Source of the DNA: Ectothiorhodospiraceae bacterium
Lineage (GTDB): Bacteria > Pseudomonadota > Gammaproteobacteria > Nitrococcales > Halorhodospiraceae
Reading direction: 5' to 3'
DNA: 56,417 nt
Assembly: GCA_003552625.1 (NCBI GenBank)
Contig: PUNM01000113.1
Coordinates: 1 to 56,417 of the forward strand
Shown: piece after piece, positions 51,000 to 53,846 of the stretch
How positions within the stretch are numbered: position 1 is the first letter of the stretch
Layout: each line of letters begins with the position of its first letter
Notes under the pieces: generated by a model
Database searches by the model: none
What the model saw: the letters and a program-made list of their open reading frames with translations, nothing else
Told to the model about the DNA's origin: nothing
Position numbers and translations under genes: made by a program

Positions 51000-52415
51000 T
51001 CAGACGCTGTAGTACATGTCGAACTCGACCGGGTGGGTGGTCATGCGCAGGCGCGTGACATCGTCCATCTTCAGCTGAATGTAGGCGTCGATCAGATCGT
51101 CGGAGAAGACACCGCCCTGCTTGAGGAACTCCCGATCGTTGTCGAGCGCCTCGAGGGCCTCGTCCAGCTGGAAGGCCACCTTCGGGATCTCCTTCTCCTC
51201 CTCCGGCGGCAGGTCGTAGAGGTCCTTGTCCATCGCCTCGCCGGGGTGAATCTTGTTGCGGATGCCGTCCAGGCCGGCCATCAGCATGGAGGCAAAGGTC
51301 AGATACGGGTTGCCCGTCGGATCCGGGAAGCGGACCTCGATGCGCCGCGCCTTCGGGTTCGCCACATACGGCACCCGCACGGAGGCTGAGCGGTTGCGGG
51401 CCGAGTAGGCCAGCAGCACCGGCGCCTCGAAGCCCGGGACCAGGCGCTTGTAGCTGTTGGTCGAGGCGTTGGCGAAGGCATTGATCGCCTTGGCGTGCTT
51501 GATGATCCCGCCGATGTAGTAGAGCGCCTCCTCCGAGAGCCCGCCGTACTGGTCGCCGGCAAAGATGTTCTTGCCCGACTTGGAGATGGACTGGTGGACG
51601 TGCATGCCGCTGCCGTTGTCGCCGACCAGCGGCTTGGGCATGAAGGTCGCGGTCTTGCCGTAGGCGTGGGCGACGTTGTGGACGCAGTACTTGAGGGTCT
51701 GCAGCTCGTCGGCCTTCTTCACCAGGGTGCGCGCGGCGACGCCGATCTCGCACTGACCTGCGGTGGCGACCTCATGGTGGTGAACCTCGGGCTCCAGGCC
51801 CATCTCCGTCATGGCCTGGCACATCGCCGCGCGAATGTCGTGCAGCGAATCCACCGGCGGCACCGGGAAGTACCCCCCCTTGACGCCGGGGCGGTGGCCG
51901 ATGTTGCCGTCTTTGTAGACGCGCTCCGAGTTCCAGCCCGCCTCCTCGGAATCCACTTTGTAGAAGGTGCCGCTCATGTCGGCGCCCCAGCGGACATCGT
52001 CGAAGACGAAGAACTCCGGCTCGGGACCGAACAGCGCCGTATCACCCAACCCGGTGGAGGCCAGATAGGCCTCGGCGCGCCGGGCCACTGAACGCGGATC
52101 GCGATCGTAGCCCTGAAGGGTACTGGGCTCGAGGATGTCGCAGACGAGGTTGAGCGTCGGCTCATCGTAGAAGGGATCGAGGGTCGCCGAGCCCGGGTCG
52201 GGCAACATGATCATGTCCGACTCCTGGATCCCCTTCCAGCCCTGGATCGATGAGCCATCGAACATCGAGCCGTGCTCGAAGAGGTCTTCATCGACCTGGG
52301 AGGCCGGTAGGGTGACGTGCATCTCCTTGCCGCGGGTGTCCGTAAAACGCAGGTCGACGAATTTGACGTTCTCGTCCTCGATGAGCTTGAGGACCTCTTC
52401 TGCGGTATGCGCCAT
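51000..52415 (-). CDS. glnA: Glutamine synthetase, type I
   Basis: 471 residues. Active-site and metal motifs: [13 protein letters not shown] near residue 50, [12 protein letters not shown] near residue 130, [10 protein letters not shown] near residue 265, and [10 protein letters not shown] near residue 335. The adenylylation site Tyr lies in [10 protein letters not shown] about 75 residues from the end, so this is the GlnE-regulated GSI-beta form. It makes glutamine from glutamate and ammonia. The ATG is at 52415. It is followed by glnL and ntrC on the same strand, the standard nitrogen-control cluster. Confidence 0.97.
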
Positions 52416-52457
52416 AGCTGATCTCTGCCTCTGCATCGAATGTTACACGGGTGAAGT

Positions 52458-52561: not shown

Positions 52562-52795
52562 TCAGCCGGAACCAACCCGCAGACGTACGTAGATCTCTTG
52601 CCCGGATTCCCGGGTCTCGATCACCTCGTGGCCGTGGACGCGGGACCAGGCCGGAATATCCTCAAGAACGCCGGGGTCCGTGGCAACGATCTCAAGCTCG
52701 TCGCCAGCGGCCATCCCGGCAACCGCCGCCTGCGTCCGGATTACCGGCATGGGGCAGAGCAGGTTGCGACAGTCGAGGGATTCACTTGCTGCCAT
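52562..52795 (-). CDS. TusA-family sulfur carrier/sulfurtransferase
   Basis: 77 residues. The SirA/TusA fold starts LDCRNLLCPMPVIRT, with the persulfide Cys14 in the CPxP motif and an extra Cys9; ATDPGVLEDIPAWSRVHGHEV is the rest of the domain. TusA proteins relay sulfur for tRNA thiolation or, in sulfur oxidisers, in dissimilatory sulfur metabolism. The ATG at 52795 lies inside the 3' end of the PP-loop gene (14-base overlap), so both are made together and it probably delivers sulfur to that protein. Confidence 0.85.
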   Translation of the reverse strand: MAASESLDCRNLLCPMPVIRTQAAVAGMAAGDELEIVATDPGVLEDIPAWSRVHGHEVIETRESGQEIYVRLRVGSG

Positions 52796-53846
52796 GCTGG
52801 CCTCCCACATACCAGTCATCGGGGACCGCCTCCGGCGGTAGCGGTGCCACGCGCAGGCTCCGGCTGGTGCCGTCGCGCTCGATGGCCTCAACCTCCACTT
52901 CATCGGCACTGCGTCCGGAGGAGTAACGGGCGACGAGCCGCGCCGCCAGGTCCAGGTCCTGCTCGCTCGCCGAACCGTCGAGCAGAGCAATGGGTCCCCC
53001 GTGGCTGACGGTACGCAGATGAGTGAACTGCTTGCGGTACCCTTCCAGGAAGCGCGTCTCGCCCTCCTCGCGGGCGATGATCAGCTTGAAGTGGGGCCGG
53101 GGACGGAGGTGGCGACCGACCTTGAGCAGCATGATGTCGTCCATGTCGTAGTTGCGCGCTCCGCGCGCCTCCCAAAGGTCGGCGAGCTTGGCGGAGTAGG
53201 TCTCATCGGTGAGGAAGCAGCAGCCGCCGGCCGGTTGCGCCCAGGTTTCGATTCCCAGCCGCTTGGCGAGGGCCATTTGCGGCTTACGGGAACGCCCGGA
53301 GAAATCGTAGAGCTGGTCTCGATCCACCCAGCCCTCGCGCTCAGGGCGTGTCGGCTCCAGGAGCTTCGCACTCAGTGGCCGAAGCAGCCGATCCTCGGCA
53401 CCGGACTCCCGGGTCACCACCGGCAGGTGCTTGCGCGTCTGCGACTTCGGCCGCTGCCCGATGACCTCGCCGGAGATGATGAAGTCGTAACCGTTCGCCT
53501 CGATCCACTCGAGGGCCTTGCCGACCATGAAGATCTTGCAGTCCAGGCACGGGTTCAGGTTGGCCCCGTACCCGTGACGGGGATTGGTGAGGACCTCCTT
53601 GTACTCCTCGATGACATCGACGATGTGCAAGGGTATGCCCAGCTGCTCAGCGACCCAGAGGGCATTGTTGCGCTTCGGTCGCTCCTGGTCCTGACGGCGT
53701 ATGGCGTGAGTGTGCCCCTCGACGCAGAAGCCGGTAAAGAAGTTGATCCCCTCGACATGCACGCCCTGCTCCTGGACCACGCGGGCGGCGAGCATGGAAT
53801 CGAGGCCGCCGGAGATCAGCGCCACAGCCTTTGGCTGGTCAGTCAT
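52782..53846 (-). CDS. PP-loop tRNA-thiolase-like protein with C-terminal NFACT-R-like domain
   Basis: 354 residues. The N-terminal PP-loop (AdoMet/ATP pyrophosphatase) motif is SGGLDSM (residues 12-18). Cys pairs occur as CLDC (100, 103) and GGCC (209, 210), with [14 protein letters not shown] between. The family is usually annotated as tRNA 5-methylaminomethyl-2-thiouridylate methyltransferase but differs from true MnmA (no matching MnmA C-terminal domain). The C-terminal part (residues about 235-330, [27 protein letters not shown]) resembles the NFACT-R RNA-binding domain seen in some tRNA thiolases. Product unknown. It overlaps the TusA gene, suggesting direct sulfur transfer. ATG start at 53846. 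Confidence 0.7.

Follow-up and report, generated by a model that had tools for sequence, protein, structure and literature searches.

A TusA-coupled PP-loop/NFACT-R fusion protein as a probable tRNA 4-thiouridine synthase in place of ThiI

Gene organization of the locus

The window, i.e., the whole stretch of 56,417 nucleotides analyzed here, comes from contig PUNM01000113.1 of an Ectothiorhodospiraceae bacterium. Near one of its ends, two genes of the minus strand overlap. One encodes a protein joining a PP-loop part to an NFACT-R_2 domain (hereafter the fusion) and the other a TusA-like sulfur carrier. The features of the region are the following.

51000-52436, minus strand: glnA, one flank of the fusion-tusA pair, named from the ORF translation
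52562..52795, minus strand: TusA-like sulfur carrier of 77 aa with its ATG at 52795 (PF01206; conserved adjacency)
52745..52756, minus strand: CPMP motif with the TusA persulfide cysteine, from the sequence (CP[ML]P in 26/26 listed adjacent TusA)
52782..53846, minus strand: PP-loop/NFACT-R_2 fusion gene, 354 aa, proposed tRNA s4U synthase (PF18297 and orthologues)
52809..53117, minus strand: NFACT-R_2 domain, residues 244-346, proposed RNA binding (PF18297; RqcH NFACT-R fold)
53217..53222, minus strand: Cys209-Cys210, Cys210 aligned to ThiI Cys344 and MnmA Cys199
53439..53471, minus strand: ThiI-type ATP-contacting DI-loop of 11 residues (126-136)
53538..53549, minus strand: CxxC with Cys100 and Cys103, proposed cluster ligands (aligned to the CxxC of MnmA 9hln)
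53796..53813, minus strand: PP-loop motif SGGLDS, residues 12-17
from ~53.98 kb, plus strand: divergent glyQ-like gene, the other flank of the pair, named from the ORF translation

The ORF of the fusion starts with ATG (354 codons), and its stop codon region overlaps tusA by 14 bases (52782-52795). Compared with most orthologues, the fusion of the window has a C-terminal extension of seven residues (348-354, window 52782-52805), and it is this longer C-terminus that extends the overlap to 14 bases. No tRNA genes were found within the window. A sequence-only reading of this DNA had described a 354-residue PP-loop protein with SGGLDS and cysteines at 100/103 and 209/210, and a CPxP TusA gene overlapping it by 14 bases. 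Both descriptions hold, the first in ORF 52782..53846(-).

Domain composition and predicted structure

The first half of the fusion matched the Pfam PP-loop profiles PF03054 (43.8 bits) and PF02568, the ThiI profile (37.6 bits). With NCBIfam it scored 45 bits against MnmA (NF001138/TIGR00420), over residues 8-134 only and under a cut-off of 284, and 34.9 bits against ThiI (TIGR00342), under a cut-off of 264.5; the TtcA equivalog model (NF007972) was absent among its NCBIfam matches at E<=10. By profile, the PP-loop lies between MnmA and ThiI, slightly nearer MnmA. The protein starts directly at the PP-loop, with no NFLD and no Pfam match to THUMP. Residues 244-346 match NFACT-R_2 (PF18297) with an E-value of 8.8e-34 (116 bits, cut-off 26.9). 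The TusA-like ORF, which carries the CPxP motif as CPMP, matches PF01206 with an E-value of 9.9e-22 (77 bits, cut-off 28.6) and scores 43.5 bits with the strict TusA equivalog, below its cut-off of 78.

The AlphaFold model of the fusion has an overall pLDDT of 86, with values under 50 at residues 206-209. Its residues 245-348 align to the NFACT-R of RqcH (8s1u) with a Z of 14.3 (2.1 Å over 102 residues), and the NFACT-R-like C-terminus previously proposed for residues 235-330 is thus recovered by the profile match and by the predicted fold. While this domain resembles that of RqcH/NEMF in both respects, the fusion lacks NFACT-N, NFACT-C, and the coiled-coil, and joins NFACT-R to a catalytic sulfurtransferase domain. 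For the catalytic part, the structural ranking puts the Thermotoga maritima ThiI-RNA structure 4kr6 first (Z 14.8, 169 residues, 2.8 Å); LarE structures rank near it, with Z up to 14.0, and MnmA entries reach 12.4 or less. As YcfA, LarE, and other PP-loop proteins lie at most 1 Z from ThiI, the fold by itself is not decisive.

Conserved cysteines, DI-loop, and association with TusA

Compared with the fusions of 30 further genomes from its class, that of the window is 61-75% identical, with a mean column identity of 75%, and its closest named relatives, at 74-78% identity, come from Ectothiorhodospiraceae and Halorhodospira MAGs. Cultured bacteria with the fusion include Sedimenticola selenatireducens DSM 17993 and Thiohalobacter thiocyanaticus. 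We aligned 123 sequences, seven of them from other classes of the phylum with 50-56% identity. The SGGLDS motif and five cysteines (Cys41, Cys100, Cys103, Cys209, and Cys210) are invariant in all 123. The CxxC plus a further cysteine expected of [4Fe-4S] tRNA thiolases is present in the fusion as Cys100, Cys103, Cys209, and Cys210, and archaeal TtuI, a [4Fe-4S] enzyme, reportedly has the same set. The combination sought for ThiI, SGGxDS with an equivalent of Cys344, is found as SGGLDS and Cys210. Cys210 aligns with both ThiI Cys344 and MnmA Cys199; around C210-F, as around the CxxC, the fusion can be aligned with MnmA.

The DI-loop reads GExxGQRxxSQ in 123/123 sequences and matches the GExLGQVxSQT of ThiI, with a Gln-Ser spacing one residue longer than in the latter. 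Neither MnmA nor TtcA of E. coli has a loop of this type, and the MnmA of the window genome lacks it as well. In T. maritima ThiI, the loop residues Gly286, Glu287, Gln291, and Gln295 contact ATP (PMC4041423); the correspondence of residues to this numbering is our own count. The DI-loop, the top fold rank of 4kr6, and the alignment of Cys210 point to a kinship of the PP-loop with ThiI.

In 108 of the 118 assessable loci, other classes included, the next gene downstream of the fusion encodes TusA in the same orientation. Taken with the 61-75% identity of the window protein to its orthologues in the class, this is well beyond chance. In most of the listed loci there is an overlap of 4-13 bases between the start codon of tusA and the stop region of the fusion gene, suggestive of translational coupling. 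The ten loci with a fusion but no adjacent TusA are L013, L027, L033, L052, L057, L062, L073, L074, L120, and L135.

Other sulfur transfer genes of the window genome

We searched the contigs of the window genome with profiles for other sulfur transfer genes. As this genome is 93.6% complete, the absence of any single gene is uncertain. It has a separate ordinary MnmA of the D-type (NPDILC, 411 bits). A full ThiI is absent, the only matches to the ThiI profile being the fusion and, weakly, MnmA, and there is no match to TtcA at E<=1e-20. We found no match to TusE/DsrC and no TusBCD-like cluster. A single DsrE match was considered as TusD and dropped, since its signal-like N-terminus makes it look like an exported DsrE-like protein. 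A second TusA, also with CPMP, lies on another contig (G000:C31, L007:1480-1746, minus strand) and is unlinked to the fusion gene; with neither TusE nor a TusBCD-like cluster detected, it may serve MnmA. The genome also has a complete RudS (TudS and DUF1722).

Distribution of the fusion, ThiI, and RudS

RudS is a TudS-DUF1722 protein that removes s4U from tRNA, and two groups of its hosts have no ThiI, for which either ThiI homologues of another architecture or a lack of s4U was proposed (PMC11417400). We analyzed two overlapping samples, one of 184 genomes of the class, drawn evenly and at least 90% complete, and one of 397 genomes of the phylum. The fusion was scored by PF18297, full-length ThiI by a score of 246 bits or more, and RudS by a search for DUF1722. 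All associations were assessed with Fisher tests, which treat genomes as independent and ignore kinship.

In the class sample, the fusion is found in 94 of 184 genomes and full-length ThiI in 13, with no genome having both (p 5.7e-5 with genomes as independent). The phylum sample, which overlaps the former, gives the same picture: 36 of 397 genomes have the fusion, 120 have ThiI, and none has both (p 1.5e-6). Within the order of the window genome, which has the fusion, ThiI is found in genomes G062 and G180.

The distribution of RudS follows both proteins. Among the 52 genomes of the class sample with a DUF1722 match, some of them partial, 6 have ThiI and 46 the fusion, and RudS is found in none of the 77 genomes with neither. 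The association between RudS and the fusion among the class genomes lacking ThiI has a p-value of 2.3e-15, again taking genomes as independent. By our count, the 46 genomes are spread over 43 families. The contrast is also seen within families: G165 has the fusion and RudS, whereas G038, of the same genus, has neither, and the same goes for G037 and G164. In the phylum sample, RudS occurs in 104 genomes, 85 with ThiI and 19 with the fusion, and in 0 of the 241 with neither (p 7.7e-20); of the 30 genomes from other classes that have the fusion, 15 carry it. RudS is missing from 48 of the 94 fusion genomes of the class sample, which is expected for an optional eraser but adds no support.

Two side observations concern the matches themselves. 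In several genomes of family f181 (e.g., G190, G198, G204, and G220), an extra, shorter DUF1722 match, covering some 70-80 of the 117 positions in frames of 230-300 aa, occurs beside the full RudS, in two cases about 1 kb from it. The matches to the TtcA model in the class sample fall into two sharp groups, of about 318-495 and 188-242 bits, the latter of which looks like a separate TtcA-like subfamily that is common in fusion genomes.

Proposed function and alternative explanations

The sequence-only reading had regarded the target and the modification as unknown. The distributions of ThiI and RudS now narrow the candidate modification to 4-thiouridine in tRNA, and we consider it very probable that the fusion and its TusA form a compact tRNA s4U system standing in for ThiI. 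The evidence, strongest in its genomic part, is comparative throughout: domains, DI-loop, cysteines, coupling to TusA, exclusion of ThiI, and the RudS pattern. The fusion resembles ThiI/TtuI, the synthase of s4U at tRNA U8, in its PP-loop fold, ATP-contacting DI-loop, cysteine at the position of Cys344, and proposed product. It differs from ThiI/TtuI in having no N-terminal ferredoxin-like, THUMP, or rhodanese domain, and instead a C-terminal NFACT-R and a coupled TusA.

One could argue that the fusion, guided by NFACT-R, thiolates C4 of a uridine in some RNA other than tRNA, or in tRNA at a site different from position 8, and that RudS erases this mark. Its RNA-binding module is indeed unrelated to THUMP, and the NFACT-R of RqcH binds 50S-tRNA complexes (8s1u). 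Yet the substrate reported for RudS is s4U of tRNA (PMC11417400) and the exclusion of ThiI suggests that the product is the same, which makes this explanation improbable in our view. We give still a little less credit to a second MnmA-like enzyme making 2-thiouridine in tRNA, at U34 or elsewhere, with TusA as a shortened relay. MnmA gives the best PP-loop profile score, and the fusion shares with this U34 s2U synthase the PP-loop, the cysteine at the position of Cys199, and the CxxC of C-type MnmA, in regions that can be aligned. However, it remains far below the MnmA cut-off, it has NFACT-R where MnmA has its C-terminal region, it carries a ThiI-type DI-loop that the MnmA proteins of E. coli and of the window genome lack, and the search of the window genome turned up neither TusE nor a TusBCD-like cluster. 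An MnmA-like role would also leave the exclusion of ThiI and the RudS pattern unexplained. As the genome has a true MnmA, displacement of MnmA by the fusion was dropped; the fusion itself is not an ordinary MnmA.

A replacement of TtcA, the enzyme making 2-thiocytidine at position 32, would account for the missing TtcA match in the window genome, and TtcA is also a Cys-rich PP-loop enzyme. When tested, TtcA over its cut-off was found together with the fusion in 34 genomes, any TtcA-like protein was present in 80 of the 94 fusion genomes, and full TtcA showed no association with RudS (p 0.30); the idea was dropped and seems to us very unlikely. A LarE-like transfer of sulfur to a small molecule, with no role in RNA, has the close LarE folds in its favor but is hardly credible: the protein has the ThiI loop and, in NFACT-R, a domain for binding RNA, and its distribution is tied to RudS and exclusive of ThiI.

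A putative mechanism for tRNA 4-thiolation

If the fusion is indeed an s4U synthase, a cysteine desulfurase would load persulfide sulfur onto TusA, which would pass it directly to the fusion. The PP-loop domain would use bound ATP to adenylate the target uridine, most likely U8, at O4, while NFACT-R would position the tRNA, taking the RNA-binding place of the N-terminal ferredoxin-like and THUMP domains of ThiI. Cys100 and Cys103, together with Cys210 (or Cys209), may hold a [4Fe-4S] cluster relaying the sulfur, or may act as a persulfide/disulfide pair, and sulfur would finally replace the AMP on the uridine. The assignment to s4U comes from genomics; the chemistry, the site U8, the cluster, and a direct hand-over of sulfur by TusA are inferred. 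A [4Fe-4S] mechanism has been reviewed for archaeal U8 thiolases, MnmA, TtcA, and TtuA (PMC10067955), and the CxxC and further cysteine predicted as ligands in the fusion would fit it. The cluster-based working of MnmA is disputed (PMC11784392), and hence a persulfide/disulfide mechanism may also apply to the fusion. Since neither DsrC/TusE nor a TusBCD-like cluster was found, a short relay from TusA to the PP-loop is plausible, in line with the previous suggestion of a route distinct from the standard TusA-BCD-E-MnmA one.

A proposed second class of bacterial s4U synthases

Burroughs and Aravind reportedly predicted in 2014 (RNA Biology), from domain architectures, that NFACT-R in other architectures acts together with TusA-like proteins in a tRNA 4-thiouridylation pathway not described before. 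If so, the s4U idea itself is not new, whereas the test with RudS and ThiI appears to be; our analysis adds the exclusion of ThiI, the dependence of RudS, and the match of the DI-loop. Text searches of the literature retrieved no paper joining NFACT-R with TusA and none with an experimental test of the fusion protein.

We think it likely that the fusion represents a second class of s4U synthases that is widespread in bacteria, THUMP-less, guided by NFACT-R, probably Fe-S-dependent, and equipped with its own TusA. It would take the place of ThiI in many families of the sampled class and, in genomes without ThiI, provide RudS with its substrate. The fusion is perhaps the missing synthase of the RudS genomes reported without ThiI, and thereby offers a specific enzyme for the gap left by s4U-erasing genomes in the RudS study (PMC11417400). 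If this is true, s4U, and the near-UV sensitivity of tRNA, would be predicted in many bacteria scored as s4U-less, given how much more often the fusion than ThiI was found in the class sample. It would also follow that evolution has combined one and the same modification with two RNA-binding modules that are unrelated to each other and with two routes of sulfur supply.
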